NCBI RefSeq assembly: GCF_003058195.1
Contig: NZ_QBUH01000002.1
Span: forward strand, 1-64,000
Direction: 5' to 3'
Origin: Elizabethkingia sp. YR214
GTDB lineage: Bacteria; Bacteroidota; Bacteroidia; Flavobacteriales; Weeksellaceae
Length of the DNA stretch: 64,000 bases
Made by a program: the position numbers and the translations under genes. A model generated the notes under the pieces. It had not been told where the DNA came from. It made no database searches and saw only the letters and a program-made list of their open reading frames with translations. Positions 24,696 to 34,025 of the stretch are shown piece after piece. Positions within the stretch are counted from its first letter, which is position 1. Every line of letters starts with the position of its first letter.

Positions 24696-26285
24696 ATGAG
24701 AACAAAACTATTCAAACCCTTATTGGGAGCATTTGTGCTTGCCTTTATGTTAAACTCCTGTAAAAGGGATATAACCTCCGAAGGGGAAATGAATCCTCAG
24801 GCCAAGTCCGGGATTACAACTACAACGATTACGAATGCTTGGCGTAATAATCCTTACAAACTCAATGTGATCTATTTTGTACCCAACGATATAGATACTA
24901 TTCCTAACTACCGCAAAAGACTTAGCAACATCATGCTTCAGTTGCAAAAGTTTTATGGTGACAATCTGCAAAGAGCAGGTTATGGTTATACCTCTTTTGG
25001 ACTGGATCTTTTATCAGATACCCAGGTGAATATTATTACGATTAAGGGAACAAAAGGTAATGCTTCTTATCCATATGATGGTGGCGGGGGAGTTGTATTG
25101 GACGAAGTAAGACAGTATTTTACGCAAAATCCTACACAGAAAAAGAGTGACCATAACCTCATTATCATGCCTTCTTATAATTCGGATCCAAATAACCCGG
25201 GTGGACCTCCGTTTTATGGCTTAGGAAGAGATTGTTTTGCGTTGGATTATGCCGGAATGGATACCGATAAATTAGGTGTAGCCGGAGCAACAGGAGATCT
25301 GGCTACAAAATGGATTGGAGGTCTTGCTCATGAATTGGGACATGGGCTGAATGCTCCTCATAACAAAGAACATAAGACAGATAAGCCTACTCTGGGAACA
25401 GCACTAATGGGAGCTGGAAACTATTCGTATGGTAAAACACCTACTTATATTACCAATGCGACATCTGCATTATTTTCACTTTCTCAGACATTTGCGACGA
25501 CAACGAGAAGCGATTGGTATGCTTCTGTACAAAATAACCTGGTTAAGCTAAAAGGTGAAGTTAAAGACAATAAGATTATAATCAGTGGTAAATATACCTC
25601 AAGCTTACCGGTGAAAATCGTAAATGTGTATCATGATCCTTTCCCTGCAGGTGGTAATAAAGATTACGATGCTTTGGCATGGGATGCACGTCCGACGGGT
25701 GGAGATTCATTCTCTATAGAATGTCCACTAGATGATTTTTATACATTATCCGGGCAGTATGAACTCAAGCTTAATTTCTATCATGAAAATGGAACACTTG
25801 TAACCTATAAATACCAATATGAATTTGTAAATGGGGTACCAAATATTTCAGTAATCAATACAAAAGACTTACTAGACAGAACAGCATGGCAAGCTCTTTC
25901 AGCAGATAGTCAGGAAACCAGCGACGGAGTAATCGCAAACATTTTGGATGGTAATTCTACTACGGTATGGCATACCAAGTGGAGAGGAGGTGAAGCACCA
26001 CTTCCACATCAGTTTGTTGTGGATATGGGAAGTACAACTACAGTTAATGGATTTGCTTTTGCTAATCGAAGCAATTTGAATGGCGCTATGAAGGATATCG
26101 AAATCTTTAAAAGCAGTGATAATTCTAACTGGACAAGTATAGGCACATTCTCACTGAAAGCGCAGCAAAGCTGGCAATATATAGATCTAAGTCAAGTACA
26201 GTCTATGAGGTATGTAAAAGTGAAAGTCACTTCTACAAATGGTGGATTCCAGTATGCACACCTAGCTGAATTTGCAGCTTATTAA
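24696..26285 (+). CDS. Metzincin-like lipoprotein with discoidin domain
   Basis: 529 residues. Lipobox LNSC at residues ~19-22. The protease region has the zinc motif HELGHGLNAPH (His212, Glu213, His216, His222, i.e. HExxHxxxxxH) and a possible Met-turn at TALMGAG (Met238). A beta-rich linker follows, then a C-terminal F5/8-type (discoidin) domain (~395-529; ILDGNSTTVWHTKW, FVVDMG, SMRYVKVKV), which usually binds glycans. This suggests a surface-anchored zinc protease acting on glycoproteins or glycan-coated targets. The specific family is not one I can name. A strong terminator follows. Confidence 0.82.
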   Translation: MRTKLFKPLLGAFVLAFMLNSCKRDITSEGEMNPQAKSGITTTTITNAWRNNPYKLNVIYFVPNDIDTIPNYRKRLSNIMLQLQKFYGDNLQRAGYGYTSFGLDLLSDTQVNIITIKGTKGNASYPYDGGGGVVLDEVRQYFTQNPTQKKSDHNLIIMPSYNSDPNNPGGPPFYGLGRDCFALDYAGMDTDKLGVAGATGDLATKWIGGLAHELGHGLNAPHNKEHKTDKPTLGTALMGAGNYSYGKTPTYITNATSALFSLSQTFATTTRSDWYASVQNNLVKLKGEVKDNKIIISGKYTSSLPVKIVNVYHDPFPAGGNKDYDALAWDARPTGGDSFSIECPLDDFYTLSGQYELKLNFYHENGTLVTYKYQYEFVNGVPNISVINTKDLLDRTAWQALSADSQETSDGVIANILDGNSTTVWHTKWRGGEAPLPHQFVVDMGSTTTVNGFAFANRSNLNGAMKDIEIFKSSDNSNWTSIGTFSLKAQQSWQYIDLSQVQSMRYVKVKVTSTNGGFQYAHLAEFAAY

Positions 26286-27283: not shown

Positions 27284-28099
27284 TTAAGGACATATCCTTT
27301 TGCCGTCTTTTCCTATAATGCTGTCTACCTTCTGGTAAGAGAACCCTATAAAGTTTTGTTTTCCGCTCAAGTAGAGTACTGCTCCGGGATTCGGATCATG
27401 GATCGTACTACATTTATATCCTGTTTCGGTATTGGCGGCCGCATAGACCCAGAAAACTTCTTTTTTTCCATTGCTAAGCGCTATGTTCCAGTAGCGATGC
27501 CAATAATATTTTCCCCTGATAGAACCGGTGCTGGTAGCTTCTGCAGTATAATGAGCTTCTTTTTGTGGTAAATAATAGGCAGCTGTACATATAATCTGGT
27601 TAATAATCCACCAGGTAGCTGCTATAAAAAAGAAAACAGTCAAAACGGCTAATATTTTTTCATATAGCGGTTCAGATTTTTGTTTGAATTCCTGAAGTAA
27701 AGGTTTTATTCTAATTTTGGTACTATGACATAATACTACAATGAAAAGCAGTATTACAAGAAGATTAATACTGTAGATAACAGTATAATTTTTATTCCAT
27801 AATAGTTTTTCCTGCCATACACTGTCCGAGCCCATAAATAAAGTAAACATAACTAAGGGAAGTGCCCATGACATTGTAAACTTGTTAGGAGAGCGAAAAA
27901 GAGATATAATAAATACAATAAGGGTGAGCGTAAAATAGATTAACAGCACGACTGTAAGCTTCATTTTCTCCGGAATAGAAGGAATTATAAAGCTAATGCC
28001 AAAGAGAAGTAAGGCTACAACAGAGGGAATAATCCCAATGAGTATTTCTCTCTTGTTATTATTTTTCTCCGTGATTTGTAGCTGTATTTTCTTTTTCAT
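27284..28099 (-). CDS. Polytopic membrane protein of unknown function
   Basis: 271 residues from ATG 28099, whose first bases overlap the stop of the preceding gene (28096) by 4 bases, so translation is coupled. A basic start (MKKKIQLQITEKNNNKRE) is followed by about five membrane segments (~25-175). The extracytoplasmic tail (~185-271) carries YYWHRYWNIALSNGKKEVFW and two Cys (YKCSTIHD, KRICP at the end). I do not recognise the family. It forms a two-gene unit with the small membrane protein upstream. Confidence 0.75.
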   Translation of the reverse strand: MKKKIQLQITEKNNNKREILIGIIPSVVALLLFGISFIIPSIPEKMKLTVVLLIYFTLTLIVFIISLFRSPNKFTMSWALPLVMFTLFMGSDSVWQEKLLWNKNYTVIYSINLLVILLFIVVLCHSTKIRIKPLLQEFKQKSEPLYEKILAVLTVFFFIAATWWIINQIICTAAYYLPQKEAHYTAEATSTGSIRGKYYWHRYWNIALSNGKKEVFWVYAAANTETGYKCSTIHDPNPGAVLYLSGKQNFIGFSYQKVDSIIGKDGKRICP

Positions 28100-28713
28100 T
28101 TCTCGCGATTTATCCAAGTGTCTGGATTTTTCAATTTTATATTCTCAGTGGCAAATACTGACTGGACTTCCTGTGTAAAGGTGAATGTAAAGCTTGCATA
28201 CACTTCCGTATCAATTTTTAATCTGTATTTAAATGGAGTGCCGGGAATTTCTATTGTTTTAGTGCTGATACGAGTAACCTGTTGATAGGGAATTCTCTTA
28301 TTTCTAAATGTTCTGAAGATGATAAAACCGTCTTTTGTAAATATATAAGGTGGAATACCTGCCCAGACACGAGCAATTTTAGAAATATAAATCTGGTATA
28401 ACATAATATATTCTTTATCCATACTTCTTAGAATATCCATAAATGATCCGAACCTCTTGTAGGTCATGTAAATAAGAGGACCTATGGCCAGTAATAATAT
28501 TGCCTGAATAGATAGTATGGTGGTAAGAATATAGGGAATAAAATGAGGCTCAGTTATGCTTCGACTATTGTAGGCTGCATGAAAATTATAAATGAAGAAA
28601 AATAAAATACTACAGTTTAAAATGACAAGAGCAATATAAATAGTATTTCTTAATTGCTTTAGCTTTTTAATTTCTGTTTGCCTGAAATCTTCATAAGAGG
28701 TTTGTAGAGTCAA
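28096..28713 (-). CDS. Membrane protein with PH-like C-terminal domain
   Basis: 205 residues. Two membrane segments (~22-42 and ~60-83) precede a cytoplasmic domain with GFIIFRTFRNKRIPYQQVTRIS, the pattern of bacterial PH-like/YcxB-type domains. The start is TTG 28713: no in-frame ATG exists before residue ~85, and a -7 promoter element at 28737-28744 sits at the right distance. The next gene overlaps by 4 bases. Function unknown. Confidence 0.72.
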   Translation of the reverse strand: MTLQTSYEDFRQTEIKKLKQLRNTIYIALVILNCSILFFFIYNFHAAYNSRSITEPHFIPYILTTILSIQAILLLAIGPLIYMTYKRFGSFMDILRSMDKEYIMLYQIYISKIARVWAGIPPYIFTKDGFIIFRTFRNKRIPYQQVTRISTKTIEIPGTPFKYRLKIDTEVYASFTFTFTQEVQSVFATENIKLKNPDTWINREK

Positions 28714-28744: not shown

Positions 28745-28812
28745 ATAAAAGCTAATGATTATTCATTTTTTAGAGAAATATTGTTCCTAAGATTCGAAGC
28801 TGACCAATAAAA

Positions 28813-28845
28813 AACCTTGTCCATTCATATAACATGGACAAGGTT
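28813..28845 (-). terminator. Terminator of the ABC exporter operon
   Basis: AACCTTGTCCAT (28813-28824) pairs perfectly with 28834-28845; on the minus strand it is followed by TTTTTATTGG. It lies just after the stop of the permease-thioredoxin gene. Confidence 0.85.
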
Positions 28846-28867: not shown

Positions 28868-31057
28868 CTAATCTTTCTTAATCTGATTCATAACTTCTAC
28901 AAAATTGTCTTCATTGGGGGAAGGTGCATTCATATTATAAATCTTACCTTCAGGATCCAGAATAATGAATCTTGGAATTCCCTGTATACCATATTCCATA
29001 GCAAACTTATTAGCATTTGGGAGGTGCCATTGCAGTGTTTTAGAAGGTTTAGTTTTTAAGAAATTCTGCCACCTTGTTTTATCCTGGTCTACGCTGATGG
29101 AAATAAATTTTATATTTTGATAATATCTGTAATTTCTTTCTCTGGCCTCAAATGCAGGACGTATTTCCAGGCATGGCTGACACCAGGTAGCCCATAAGTC
29201 GATTATGACATATTTCCCACGGAATTGTGAAAGTTTCTGGGCTTTTCCAAGGCTATCAGTAAAATTAAGATCCGGGAAAGGCATGCCTTTCTGGCTTTGG
29301 TTTAGAGATAATAATTTTCCCTGTAGGTACGCTTTTAGCTCTTTATCCTGAATATAGCCAATCTCTGAGCGGAATATGTTATTTCGGGTAATGCTGTCTG
29401 TTTTTAACTCTAGGGATTTATAGAGCTGTGTTCCTATAAGTCTGTCTTTTTCTATTCCGGTGGGTAGAGTATTGAGCTTATTAAAAATAAGACTGTCATT
29501 GCCCTCTGCATTACTTTGTCCAGCCATCAATTGATTAAGTTTGTAATCAAGATAGTTGGTATTTTTTTTCAAAAGGCGTACCGGGTTTTTTATAGTTCCT
29601 TGTAACTCGTCCATCAGATATTTTGGTGCAGTAGACGAAGAGGAGGATATTTTTTTATAATTTTCAATATTGCTAAGGAATTTTATAGCCAAAAGCTGCT
29701 TTCTGTATTCTTTAAACTCATTGGAAAGCCCAAAGTTTTCAGAGGTAGAAAACCTGGAGAGGTACTTTTTATTTTCATTCCATTCCTTTTGTATTTTACT
29801 GTAGAATTCCTGAGGATTTTTGAACTCTTTATTGTCTAATTGGTATTGGAAATTTCCTGCAAAATCCTCTTCTGTACTATTATACTCCTGTTCTGCTTTC
29901 CTGTTGCTTTTTACAAAAGCTTCCATTTTTATTGCATTCAGGCGGAAGAATAGATCAAACCAGTCTCCCTTACCAAACACCAAAGGATATTTCTTATCAC
30001 CAAACTCTAAAACATATTCATCCATTGGAAGATTTTCTTTTGTTTCCCATTTAAACTGATTGTTTGTTGCAGGTATAGAAGCTATTTTTTTATGAAAATC
30101 TTTAGTGAAAATACGAACAGAATCTATTTTTATATCGGTTTCAAATTTCCCGGTAATATTAGTGAATTCCGTATTGGCTTTAGGAATAATCGGTTTTTTT
30201 ACCGCATAAAAAACACCTGTAAAGATAATGGCCATAACAATGCTGGCGATTAGTGTTTTTTTATGGTCTATAAAAGCACTGCGGAATCCTTTTTTAGCAT
30301 ACCATAAATAGCCGATGATGAGAAATACAAACATCCAGAATATGCTTAAGTATTCTGAGTAGGAAAAAATATGATTAAGGTTTCTTACATTATTGTTTTT
30401 ACTCATAATGTAGAAAACATTGTATGGGGAATATTCTATATTTATTCTTTGTACCAGAGAGAAAACATTAAGAATAAGTCCTAATATTCCCAATAAAAAT
30501 GGCCATATAAATCCCGGAATTATAACAGATATCATAAGCTGAAGGGCTATAATCCCTAATGCTGAAACCATAATTCTAAATAAAGTTTGAGCAGACCATA
30601 GAAAACTAAAATCTAATATTTTAGCAGGATCAGGATAGATATAGTACTGAGCAATAGCAACAATAGCTGTGATAAGCAAAAAGCTTACGGCGCAGATGAA
30701 AGCCATAATCACCAGATTAACATACTTGGCCATATAAATATTAAGTTTGCTAATAGGCTGGGTTTCCATTAAGAGCCATCCACCGTTTTTGTGATCAGTC
30801 TGGGCAATTCTATTGGCTGAAATAATAATATACAGTAAGAAGAAAAACATAACAAAACCTTTTAATGAGTCTTGTACGCTGGTTTCAATAACCGGATATT
30901 TCAATGCAGCTGCATCGGTATTATGATCCCTGAAAAAATCTGATACAAACCCTAAAAGAGGAATAATAGCACCCATGGCAATAGCTAGGTATAAGAGTCC
31001 TAAGCCTTTGATCTTTATCCATTCTACTTGTATAGCAATCAATAGTTTTTTCATCAT
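28868..31057 (-). CDS. ABC-2 permease fused to a TlpA-like thioredoxin domain
   Basis: 729 residues in three parts. Residues 1-~286 form an ABC-2 type permease with about six membrane segments (start MMKKLLIAIQVEWIKIK, last segment ~268-286). Residues ~290-590 form a charged extracytoplasmic linker with no family I recognise, resembling the long N-terminal part of Bacteroidota TlpA-type proteins. Residues ~590-729 are a thioredoxin domain of the TlpA/AhpC-TSA type with the redox motif WCQPC (Cys626, Cys629) and cis-Pro695 in GIPRF. The gene follows its ATPase after one base. The two together look like an exporter whose permease carries its own periplasmic thiol-disulfide enzyme. No frameshift or in-frame stop is seen across the junction. 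Confidence 0.88.
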   Translation of the reverse strand: MMKKLLIAIQVEWIKIKGLGLLYLAIAMGAIIPLLGFVSDFFRDHNTDAAALKYPVIETSVQDSLKGFVMFFFLLYIIISANRIAQTDHKNGGWLLMETQPISKLNIYMAKYVNLVIMAFICAVSFLLITAIVAIAQYYIYPDPAKILDFSFLWSAQTLFRIMVSALGIIALQLMISVIIPGFIWPFLLGILGLILNVFSLVQRINIEYSPYNVFYIMSKNNNVRNLNHIFSYSEYLSIFWMFVFLIIGYLWYAKKGFRSAFIDHKKTLIASIVMAIIFTGVFYAVKKPIIPKANTEFTNITGKFETDIKIDSVRIFTKDFHKKIASIPATNNQFKWETKENLPMDEYVLEFGDKKYPLVFGKGDWFDLFFRLNAIKMEAFVKSNRKAEQEYNSTEEDFAGNFQYQLDNKEFKNPQEFYSKIQKEWNENKKYLSRFSTSENFGLSNEFKEYRKQLLAIKFLSNIENYKKISSSSSTAPKYLMDELQGTIKNPVRLLKKNTNYLDYKLNQLMAGQSNAEGNDSLIFNKLNTLPTGIEKDRLIGTQLYKSLELKTDSITRNNIFRSEIGYIQDKELKAYLQGKLLSLNQSQKGMPFPDLNFTDSLGKAQKLSQFRGKYVIIDLWATWCQPCLEIRPAFEARERNYRYYQNIKFISISVDQDKTRWQNFLKTKPSKTLQWHLPNANKFAMEYGIQGIPRFIILDPEGKIYNMNAPSPNEDNFVEVMNQIKKD

Positions 31058-31058
31058 T

Positions 31059-31961
31059 TTAGTTTTTAGTTAGTTCTATAAACCAGTCCTCAAGACCAGT
31101 ATTACTTTTTAGTTCAAATATTTCAGCTTGTTGAGATACAAGAAGGTTATTTAATGCTATTACTTCTTCTTTGCTACTAACTGCACATTCCATTGTGTTT
31201 TCATTGATAAGTTTTGGACTGTATACATTGGGGATCTTGTCTATAAACTGATGCGCATTGTTAATGCCCACTTTTACACGGCTATATTGATAAAGTTGAT
31301 TAAGCTCTTCTTTACTTCCCATAAATTTTATCTCGCCATGAGAGATAATAGCCAGATGTGTAATCATTTTCTCAATTTCCTGAAGCAAATGGCTCGATAT
31401 AAAAATAGTAATCCCTTTTTCTTGATTTAGTTTTAGAAGCAACTCCCGAATCTCTATCATCCCATTAGGATCCAATCCGTTTACCGGTTCATCCAGAATC
31501 AAAAGTTCGGGATTTCCTAAAAGGGACATAGCAATGGCAAGACGCTGTTTCATACCCAGGGAATATTTTTTCATTTTAGTATTTCTGGCATCCCATAAAC
31601 CAACAAGGTGCAGAACTTCCTCAGCATTTTGTTTTGGAAGTTCCCGTAGTTTAGAAAGGACCATAAGGTTATCCCATCCGGACAAATGATCATAGAATGC
31701 CGGATAATCAATAAGAGAGCCAATTCTATTAAATCCTCCGGGATAGAACGAGCTGAGTTCCTGACCGAAAATTTTAATAGTTTTATCAGTATCGGTAAGT
31801 GCACCAATAATAAATCTCATAGTTGTTGATTTTCCGGCTCCATTTGCACCCAAAAAACCAAAAATACTTCCTTTCGGAACATGAATGCTTAAGTCTTTTA
31901 ATATAGGTTTTCCCTTACTAAAAGAGAAGCTCAAATCTTTAATATCAATTGTGTTCTCCAT
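31059..31961 (-). CDS. ABC transporter ATP-binding protein
   Basis: 300 residues, complete nucleotide-binding domain: Walker A GANGAGKST (~38-46), signature YSLGMKQRL (~133-141), Walker B LLILDEP (153-159) and the switch His in ISSHLL. The C-terminal extension (~215-300) is typical of drug/peptide exporters of the CcmA/BcrA group that pair with ABC-2 permeases. It is encoded one base before the permease-thioredoxin fusion, its evident partner. The exported compound is unknown. Confidence 0.93.
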   Translation of the reverse strand: MENTIDIKDLSFSFSKGKPILKDLSIHVPKGSIFGFLGANGAGKSTTMRFIIGALTDTDKTIKIFGQELSSFYPGGFNRIGSLIDYPAFYDHLSGWDNLMVLSKLRELPKQNAEEVLHLVGLWDARNTKMKKYSLGMKQRLAIAMSLLGNPELLILDEPVNGLDPNGMIEIRELLLKLNQEKGITIFISSHLLQEIEKMITHLAIISHGEIKFMGSKEELNQLYQYSRVKVGINNAHQFIDKIPNVYSPKLINENTMECAVSSKEEVIALNNLLVSQQAEIFELKSNTGLEDWFIELTKN

Positions 31962-32105: not shown

Positions 32106-32128
32106 ACCTCACAGAATCTCTGTGAGGT
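32106..32128 (-). terminator. Terminator after the ferredoxin-like gene
   Basis: ACCTCACAG (32106-32114) pairs perfectly with CTGTGAGGT (32120-32128), five-base loop; on the minus strand it is followed by TTTTTTATT. Confidence 0.8.
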
Positions 32129-32160: not shown

Positions 32161-32376
32161 TTATTCGTTCATGCGGTACCCAAGCGCACCAGTAGGGCAT
32201 TTTTCAATCTGACTTTTTAACTCTTCAGCACTAGCTTCCATAGGTGTGATCCAAGGTTTATCCTTTGGATGATACACTCTAGGTAGTGTTTTAACGCATA
32301 CTCCGGCATGTTTGCACTTTGAAGGTGTCCATAAAACTGTAATGCCTTTGTTTTCTGAATATTCTTTTGTTTCCAT
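32161..32376 (-). CDS. Fer4_19-type mono-cluster iron-sulfur protein
   Basis: 71 residues. Cys pattern SKCKHAGVCVKTLPRVY ... IEKCPTGAL matches the divergent 4Fe-4S mono-cluster family (Fer4_19). These small cytosolic ferredoxin-like proteins probably transfer electrons; the family has no firm role. It is transcribed alone, ended by the terminator at 32106-32128, and is 84 bases from the haem-binding gene upstream on the same strand. Confidence 0.88.
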   Translation of the reverse strand: METKEYSENKGITVLWTPSKCKHAGVCVKTLPRVYHPKDKPWITPMEASAEELKSQIEKCPTGALGYRMNE

Positions 32377-32460
32377 CTTATATGTTACTTATTGTTCTAG
32401 CATAAAGTTAGTTGAAAAAAAATAAATATTAAAATCAGGGTTTTGTATGAATGTAACAGG

Positions 32461-32919
32461 CTACTCTGTGGAACTAATTGAATCCAGCCACCTAAGAATC
32501 GCTTTCTTTTCTTCTAAAGACAGCTTTGCACTTTTATGAATCACCACGTAGGAGGGGAGTGGCATTTTATTATTTTCAATCTGTTCTTTAATGCCACTGA
32601 ATTTATTTTTCTTTTTCCGATTAGAATAATTCCCCCATTCATTAAAGTTCAGTTCCTGCTTACCTTTGTTAATATGTTTTTCTAAAAAATAACTTACCGG
32701 CTGAATATAAGCGTAAAAGGGGTAAGTAGTATTATTGCTGTGACAGTCATAACAAGAGTTCAATAAAATACGCTGTATGTTAATAGGCGCTTTATAGACC
32801 TGCATGAAATCAGAAGAAGGAATTTTTCCTTTATCTATATTTCTTAAAGGTTGAAAAAACTGAAGGAGTAGTAAAAGAATGACCCCGGCAAAGAGTATTT
32901 TTTTGATTGCTTTACTCAT
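32461..32919 (-). CDS. Haem-binding domain protein
   Basis: 152 residues. One N-terminal membrane segment (~6-24), then the haem-binding domain with the c-type site CYDCHSNNTTYPFYAYIQP and the distal segment KGKQELNFNEW. Such proteins face the periplasm and bind one covalent haem through CxxCH. The start overlaps the end of the DUF3347 gene by 8 bases, so the two are made together; this pairing is frequent in flavobacteria. An electron-transfer or redox-sensing role is likely but not shown here. Confidence 0.88.
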   Translation of the reverse strand: MSKAIKKILFAGVILLLLLQFFQPLRNIDKGKIPSSDFMQVYKAPINIQRILLNSCYDCHSNNTTYPFYAYIQPVSYFLEKHINKGKQELNFNEWGNYSNRKKKNKFSGIKEQIENNKMPLPSYVVIHKSAKLSLEEKKAILRWLDSISSTE

Positions 32920-33463
32920 TCTGTAATTCTTTTTTTATCGACCCGCAGTCAGGCATTTTAGCTCCATAATAAGGGTTTATGATTTCTTTTTTTTCGCTAA
33001 GCCATATAGCTCCTTCTCCCTTATTGTAATTGGGACAAAAATCCTGATAAAGCTTTATTCCTCCAGTTCCAAAACTATCGATAAGATCGTTGATATCTCT
33101 ACTGAGTAAAGAAAAATGTTCTCTCTGGTGTTCAACATTTCCGGCATTAGTACTGATATGTTCTGCATTTTCATGAAGGCTTTCATAGATATCCATGAAT
33201 ACCGCTTTTTGTTCCTGATCTAGAGCATCCAAAGTTTCAAATAGCTTTTTTGCAGCCTCTGCAGTTGCTTTTCCATCATCTTTAGTCAGTGCATTTTTTA
33301 TATCCAGGTAATCGTTGATAATCTCTTTTACCGAAAAAGAAGCTCTAGCTTGTATATTTGTTTCTTTAGAGGTTTGTAGTGTTTTATTTTCAGTCTTAGT
33401 TTTTTTATCGGCACAGGCTATTAAACTTAAGCCCATAAGTATTGTAATGATGATATTTCTCAT
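32912..33463 (-). CDS. DUF3347 domain lipoprotein
   Basis: 183 residues. Lipobox LIAC (~14-17), a helical DUF3347 domain (VKEIINDYLDIKNALTKDD ... AEAAKKLFETL), then a C-terminal motif with CPNYNKGEGAIWLSEKKE and NPYYGAKMPDCG. The closely related segment at the end of CusB-like proteins is CPM...NPYFGxxMxxCG, so metal (copper) binding is plausible; here CPM is CPN, so one Met ligand is missing. It overlaps the haem-binding gene by 8 bases. Confidence 0.85.
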   Translation of the reverse strand: MRNIIITILMGLSLIACADKKTKTENKTLQTSKETNIQARASFSVKEIINDYLDIKNALTKDDGKATAEAAKKLFETLDALDQEQKAVFMDIYESLHENAEHISTNAGNVEHQREHFSLLSRDINDLIDSFGTGGIKLYQDFCPNYNKGEGAIWLSEKKEIINPYYGAKMPDCGSIKKELQNE

Positions 33464-33674
33464 TTCAAAGTATGTTTTAATTAATGATTAGTTATACCTA
33501 AATCCTAGGCTAGAATAAAGGGTTTAAGACATCAATAGGTTTATTGATGAATGGTGATGGCGCGTAGTTATCCCTTTTAAAACGTCCCATACAAGTAAAC
33601 ATTAAACTACATCACATTGTTCTAATGCAAATATTGTTTTGGACGAAATACAATTTGGGCTATACGTAATGAGA

Positions 33675-34025
33675 TTAGCCTATTTTAGGTGTAAGCCAGG
33701 TAAAAAGAAATCCTTTAGAAATAGTGTATTCAGGATTAATGAAAGATGACTTGTTATAGTACATTGTTTTTTCAAAACTGAAGTTTTGAGAATCAGGAAG
33801 TAAAGTAGTAATACAGCAGGTAAGACATTTGCACTGTTCAGTACAATTTTGACGATTCTGTTGAGAATTACAACCTTCACAGCCGCTGCAATACTCTTTT
33901 TCTGATAATTCAGCTTTATAACCGGACTCCGATACAGGAATTATATTTTTACCACAGGCGGAAACTTGCCCAGGGGTAAAGAGAAATCCTAATAAGATTA
34001 TAAGTATGTATCGATATTGCAACAT
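33675..34025 (-). CDS. Secreted Cys-rich protein
   Basis: 116 residues. Signal peptide (residues 1-~22, ending VSAC). The mature part has a Cys cluster CSGCEGCNSQQNRQNCTEQCKCLTCC-like in spacing (eight Cys within ~35 residues), then a tail ending KGFLFTWLTPKIG. The family is not one I can name. The Cys density suggests metal binding or disulfides. The position upstream of the DUF3347/haem-binding pair on the same strand suggests a shared metal or redox role, though 211 bases separate them. Confidence 0.7.
   Translation of the reverse strand: MLQYRYILIILLGFLFTPGQVSACGKNIIPVSESGYKAELSEKEYCSGCEGCNSQQNRQNCTEQCKCLTCCITTLLPDSQNFSFEKTMYYNKSSFINPEYTISKGFLFTWLTPKIG

Follow-up and report, generated by a model that had tools for sequence, protein, structure and literature searches.

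An ABC-2 permease covalently joined to a TlpA-like thioredoxin in Elizabethkingia and other Flavobacteriales

Exporters of the BcrAB, LanFEG and CprABC type, involved in antibiotic or lantibiotic immunity, combine a six-helix permease of about 260 amino acids with a separate LanF/BcrA-like ATPase. ABC-2 pumps are dimers with two ATPases, and stand-alone resistance pumps need not sit inside a production cluster. On the thioredoxin side, TlpA and ResA are membrane-anchored periplasmic proteins carrying a WCxPC motif and a cis-proline; they usually work as reductases that DsbD or CcdA recharge, and a DUF4369 domain ahead of the thioredoxin is common among the TlpA members of Bacteroidota. Membrane proteins joined to a thioredoxin are known from the VKOR-thioredoxin fusions, which are a quinone-linked oxidase family and not ABC transporters. 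The nearest described partnership of an exporter with a thioredoxin that we found is in the SKF cluster of Bacillus subtilis, where skfH encodes a putative thioredoxin and skfE and skfF serve export and resistance (PMC8172795). As at the locus described here, exporter and thioredoxin functions are paired genetically in SkfEF and SkfH, although these are separate proteins of a dedicated sactipeptide cluster (PMC8172795); the fused loci contain no such cluster.

The window analysed here is a whole stretch of 64,000 nucleotides of Elizabethkingia sp. YR214 (contig NZ_QBUH01000002.1). An open-reading-frame check finds at 28868..31057 (-) a single unbroken gene of 729 codons for amino acids, and the frame, Pfam, homologues and alignment together give its product as an ABC-2 permease followed by a seventh membrane helix, a DUF4369-like domain, a probably helical region and a TlpA-like thioredoxin. 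The gene of a 300-aa ABC ATPase (31059..31961 (-); PF00005, intact motifs) is the upstream one, separated from the fusion frame by 1 base. Unlike BcrAB, LanFEG and CprABC, the locus holds one permease gene only, with a C-terminal extension of about 460 residues that includes the thioredoxin. An intrinsic-terminator-like hairpin, recognised by consensus match only, lies upstream of the ATPase gene and after the preceding gene (32106..32128 (-)), and a terminator-like hairpin with a T run lies 3' of the fusion gene (28809..28845 (-); -17.7 kcal/mol, z -3.8); bounded in this way, the pair looks like a self-contained operon. Both the continuous 729-residue frame and the ATPase one base upstream, as proposed in the initial annotation, are borne out by these coordinates. 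Further 3' of the operon (window 27284-28713 (-)) are two orphan membrane proteins of 277 and 205 aa that have no significant Pfam match and occur also in other Elizabethkingia.

An assembly join or frameshift near residue 286 was considered and is excluded: 70 Weeksellaceae genomes and 29 others have full-length homologues, and dN/dS values are 0.03-0.08; the same protein is found in E. occulta and E. miricola at 84% identity. In comparisons among Elizabethkingia species the permease has a dN/dS of 0.07-0.08, helix 7 with the linker 0.08 and the thioredoxin 0.03-0.04, and all three segments are under purifying selection. Because full-length homologues exist and dN/dS is low in each of the three segments, the fusion is not a join artefact.

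The ATPase matches PF00005 (ABC_tran) in Pfam with an E-value of 4e-26, and Walker A, signature, Walker B and H-loop are all present; the strict signature pattern is missed by 3 of 57 ATPase sequences, that of the window not among them. The proposal of an ABC exporter is thereby upheld in its sequence part. The nearest NCBIfam models are galliderm_ABC (LanF-like) and DrrA, both scoring below their cut-offs (214.9 bits against 309.75 for galliderm_ABC). Since the ATPase falls below the curated cut-offs, here unlike LanFEG, we do not claim membership of LanFEG or BcrAB, and "peptide or drug pump" describes a resemblance at the level of sequence.

The permease part (residues 2-266, six membrane helices, 30260..31054 (-), from Pfam and alignment) matches PF12730 (ABC2_membrane_4) at residues 9-196 with an E-value of 6e-11, above the curated cut-off, and the same model has a match in each of the 19 members scanned; a PDB profile search with this part alone returned no match. 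Its length is that of the unfused homologues (256-288 aa), which stop right behind helix 6 and the positively charged residues that follow it. Fused proteins align with them up to that point and then continue into a seventh membrane helix of their own (about residues 268-288, 30194..30256 (-)), which is predicted from the alignment of fused and unfused C-termini and from the charge distribution to lead the chain into the periplasm. The family proposed for the permease therefore stands and the count of about six membrane segments does not: there are seven, the last being the anchor of the thioredoxin part. The N terminus, loop 2-3 and loop 6-7 are rich in K and R, the last with a mean of 3.9 K+R and 0.1 D+E in the fused proteins, whereas loops 1-2, 3-4 and 5-6 are not (positive-inside rule). 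Because helix 7 follows the K/R-rich loop 6-7, everything after this helix, including the thioredoxin, is predicted to be periplasmic; hydropathy and the positive-inside rule agree on this orientation, which had been suggested beforehand. A cytoplasmic thioredoxin is rejected on the evidence of the seventh helix and the loop charges.

The stretch of about 300 residues between permease and thioredoxin had been described simply as a linker; it is present, and it is not featureless. It begins with a DUF4369-like domain (about residues 299-388, 29894..30163 (-)), recognised by homology to fused relatives since the protein of the window is below the Pfam threshold; DUF4369 is above the Pfam cut-off in three of these relatives (L046, L060, L064) and weaker in others. 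Behind it come about 190 residues (about 389-585, 29303..29893 (-)) with no Pfam match in the window protein, which are probably helical according to a low-confidence structure model (pLDDT 38, predicted from an alignment of three near-identical sequences). A PDB profile search with the linker alone gave no match.

The C-terminal part, about residues 586-729 (28871..29302 (-)), is a TlpA/ResA-like thioredoxin domain by Pfam, PDB profile and alignment. PF13905, PF08534 and PF00578 match residues 589-715 with E-values from 1.5e-18 to 4e-12, above their curated cut-offs, so that ABC2_membrane_4 and thioredoxin-family models are found above cut-off in one protein. The WCQPC motif corresponds to C626-Q-P-C629 and the cis-proline to I694-P695, and none of the 37 fusions deviates at C626, P628, C629 or P695, in line with the TlpA-like enzyme of the initial annotation. 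The closest PDB matches in the profile search are TlpA-like oxidoreductases, ResA and TlpA, and the thioredoxin fold with WCxPC and cis-Pro, the predicted periplasmic location behind a membrane anchor (hydropathy, charge) and the DUF4369-like domain in front are all shared with the TlpA/ResA/DUF4369-TlpA family. Curated TlpA/ResA models score below their cut-offs (NF047696, 72 against 230 bits; PRK03147, 57.8 against 170), and by these matches the domain is a family-level relative of the TlpA/ResA class and an orthologue of neither. Unlike TlpA and ResA, its anchor is the permease's seventh helix, and no link to cytochrome maturation genes is seen in other genera. Across the 37 fusions no cysteine column outside the CxxC is conserved, the permease included. 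This result weakens redox control of the pump, one of the two roles suggested at the outset, as far as it would act via cysteines of the pump itself.

The full-length fusion is found in at least 70 of 320 Weeksellaceae genomes (rows spanning residues 2-8 to 725-729), in 8 genera and with 33-85% identity outside the window. A permease-only profile run across 396 genomes of the order added one further genus, Flavobacteriaceae g35, with the fusion in at least 29 of 299 genomes and a permease-only relative in 2; as the genome searches score the best few candidates per genome, the counts are lower bounds. The ATPase adjoins the fusion in all 37 fused loci read. This breadth settles that the proteins are truly covalent fusions and refutes the idea that homologues are always split. 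Two genomes (G066 and G161) were considered as carriers of split homologues; their breaks are out of frame and lie within the linker, near residues 476 and 385 and not at the permease/thioredoxin boundary, and these are probably decayed copies or sequencing errors. Copies in two others (G129 and G189) are interrupted by contig ends. One genome carries two diverged fusion copies (L045 on G091:C20 and L019 on G091:C2). A plasmid search for full-length relatives found none. The presence of the fusion is patchy within genera, which shows that the system is dispensable.

DUF4369-TlpA-like proteins also exist in the family as separate lipoproteins, for example one of 451 aa (L061) with the same layout that matches residues 300-719 of the query at 29%, its linker part alone not being significant; the paralogues of the genome itself, considered as donors of the thioredoxin half, show weak linker similarity only. 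The fused half opens with an anchor helix, as it would if an anchored protein had been appended whole, and the permease has no conserved cysteine. These features are consistent with a rather unlikely alternative, in which the fusion is a mere shared membrane anchor that fixes the co-expression and location of an exporter and a TlpA-like reductase with unrelated or loosely related jobs. However, no split at the permease/thioredoxin boundary was seen among the 99 genomes with the fusion, although the proteins are deeply diverged (33-38% identity). As far as the searches show, pump and thioredoxin remain together, and a bare anchor would need no retention on this one pump.

Outside Weeksellaceae and g35, the permease family occurs in 16 of 395 genomes of the phylum, and the thioredoxin part is absent in all of them. 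The unfused permeases have 256-288 residues where complete, one being interrupted by a contig end, and the ATPase is adjacent where read. No thioredoxin gene stands beside the unfused pump in the loci read from other Bacteroidota families, and the merger of a pre-existing pair of neighbours is therefore not indicated. In maximum-likelihood trees made separately for the permease part and the ATPase, a single fully supported branch, present in 100% of bootstrap trees, sets the 37 fused rows apart from the others. The trees thus indicate that the fusion arose once and that the ATPase was passed on with it; they are midpoint-rooted, and the derived state of the fused form rests on the wider spread of the unfused one. 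Several independent fusions were considered, with a divergent g35 subgroup (L131-L133) as candidate, and both trees retain one origin. In L131, L132 and L133 the fusion gene comes directly after a gene for a TonB-dependent OMP_b-brl_3 receptor (802 aa), and the linker is too diverged for the linker profile.

Gene neighbourhoods differ between the two forms. Two genes, for a histidine kinase of PF06580 and a response regulator of the LytTR type, adjoin 12 of 18 unfused loci (L096, L097, L098, L100-L104, L106-L108 and L110), a likeness of these relatives to BcrAB, LanFEG and CprABC, and no such pair stands beside the fused loci. No conserved partner gene was found near the fusion in the 37 fused loci, and neither was a lantibiotic or antibiotic production cluster; the neighbours vary by genus and include M13 peptidase, type I phosphodiesterase, TonB receptor, ferredoxin and haem-binding genes. 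Since presence is patchy within genera and no neighbour is fixed, an accessory, stress- or resistance-like function is suggested, more so than a role in a core pathway or in a cluster dedicated to one peptide. In the window the upstream block (32161-34025 (-)), common only to other Elizabethkingia loci, encodes a divergent 4Fe-4S ferredoxin-like protein, one with a haem-binding domain, one with DUF3347 and a cysteine-rich protein of 116 residues without Pfam match.

The initial annotation had named a disulfide or thiol-containing peptide as an example of the exported molecule and proposed a neighbour survey for precursors. Export and maturation of a disulfide- or thioether-containing peptide would have an analogy in the SKF cluster, with the thioredoxin SkfH beside the exporter SkfEF (PMC8172795). 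However, in a screen of ORFs of at least 50 aa, no precursor, radical-SAM, protease or other maturation gene is conserved in the 37 fused loci, and the neighbours depend on the genus; as a general role peptide export and maturation is largely refuted, and we regard it as very improbable. Another explanation could be that ATPase and permease form a mechanical or sensory module and not a pump, ATP-driven movement controlling the periplasmic reductase as FtsEX does its hydrolase partners. The lack of a substrate gene in the vicinity of the 37 fused loci, the presence of about 440 periplasmic residues on so small a permease and the different regulation suggested by the LytTR/histidine-kinase pairs of the unfused relatives would fit such a module, yet PF12730 assigns the permease to the ABC-2 exporters and not to the FtsX/MacB family of mechanotransmission, and we consider this explanation quite unlikely.

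We give about an even chance to the reading that we prefer, in which the pump is an exporter resembling BcrAB and LanFEG, and the TlpA-type reductase tethered to it works at the pump's exit on a substrate that contains thiols or disulfides. The permease would have been extended once, in Flavobacteriales, by a whole membrane-anchored TlpA-type protein made of anchor helix, DUF4369-like domain, helical region and thioredoxin. The pump would consist of two ATPases and two fusion chains and so present two thioredoxins at its periplasmic face. Each of these would serve as a reductase, itself recharged by a membrane reductase of the DsbD type, and would reduce disulfides in, or keep thiols reduced in, the molecule being expelled or drawn out of the membrane by the pump; this molecule may be a thiol compound of the cell itself or an unwelcome peptide or antibiotic with a disulfide. 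Redox handling of what is transported, the other role suggested at the outset, is plausible. A direct coupling, in which the pump hands its substrate to the attached thioredoxin and ATP-driven expulsion and disulfide reduction become one reaction, is a possibility that we hold tentatively and think somewhat unlikely. With the same reserve, such a reaction might disarm disulfide-containing antimicrobial peptides on their way out of the membrane, or supply the periplasm with a reduced thiol.

Full-text literature searches, with most subscription papers outside their scope, returned no description of a permease-thioredoxin fusion, in agreement with the earlier statement that no described function is known for this architecture, which is probably listed automatically in domain databases. 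Should pump and thioredoxin prove coupled, the fusion would be the first ABC exporter with its own thiol-disulfide enzyme, judging from the literature searched and general knowledge, and also a clean system with pump and enzyme separable at a known evolutionary junction. It offers a direct entry to one member of the large, unassigned group of DUF4369-TlpA proteins in Bacteroidota, for which the unfused pumps of other families provide a natural control.

The same genome encodes a DsbD homologue of 683 aa (G000:C3:50804) and one of the VKOR-thioredoxin fusions, a membrane protein joined to a thioredoxin as in the present case (504 residues, G000:C6:150732-151112, L150:814-2328); the periplasm can therefore be supplied with reducing as well as oxidising power. 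The VKOR-thioredoxin gene adjoins a secretion adaptor-like gene (HlyD-like by eye), and with this neighbour it looks like part of a peptide secretion cluster. Finally, the window contains at 24696-26285 (+) a gene for a secreted metalloprotease-like protein of 529 residues, with the motif HELGHGLNAPH and a C-terminal F5/8 type C domain.
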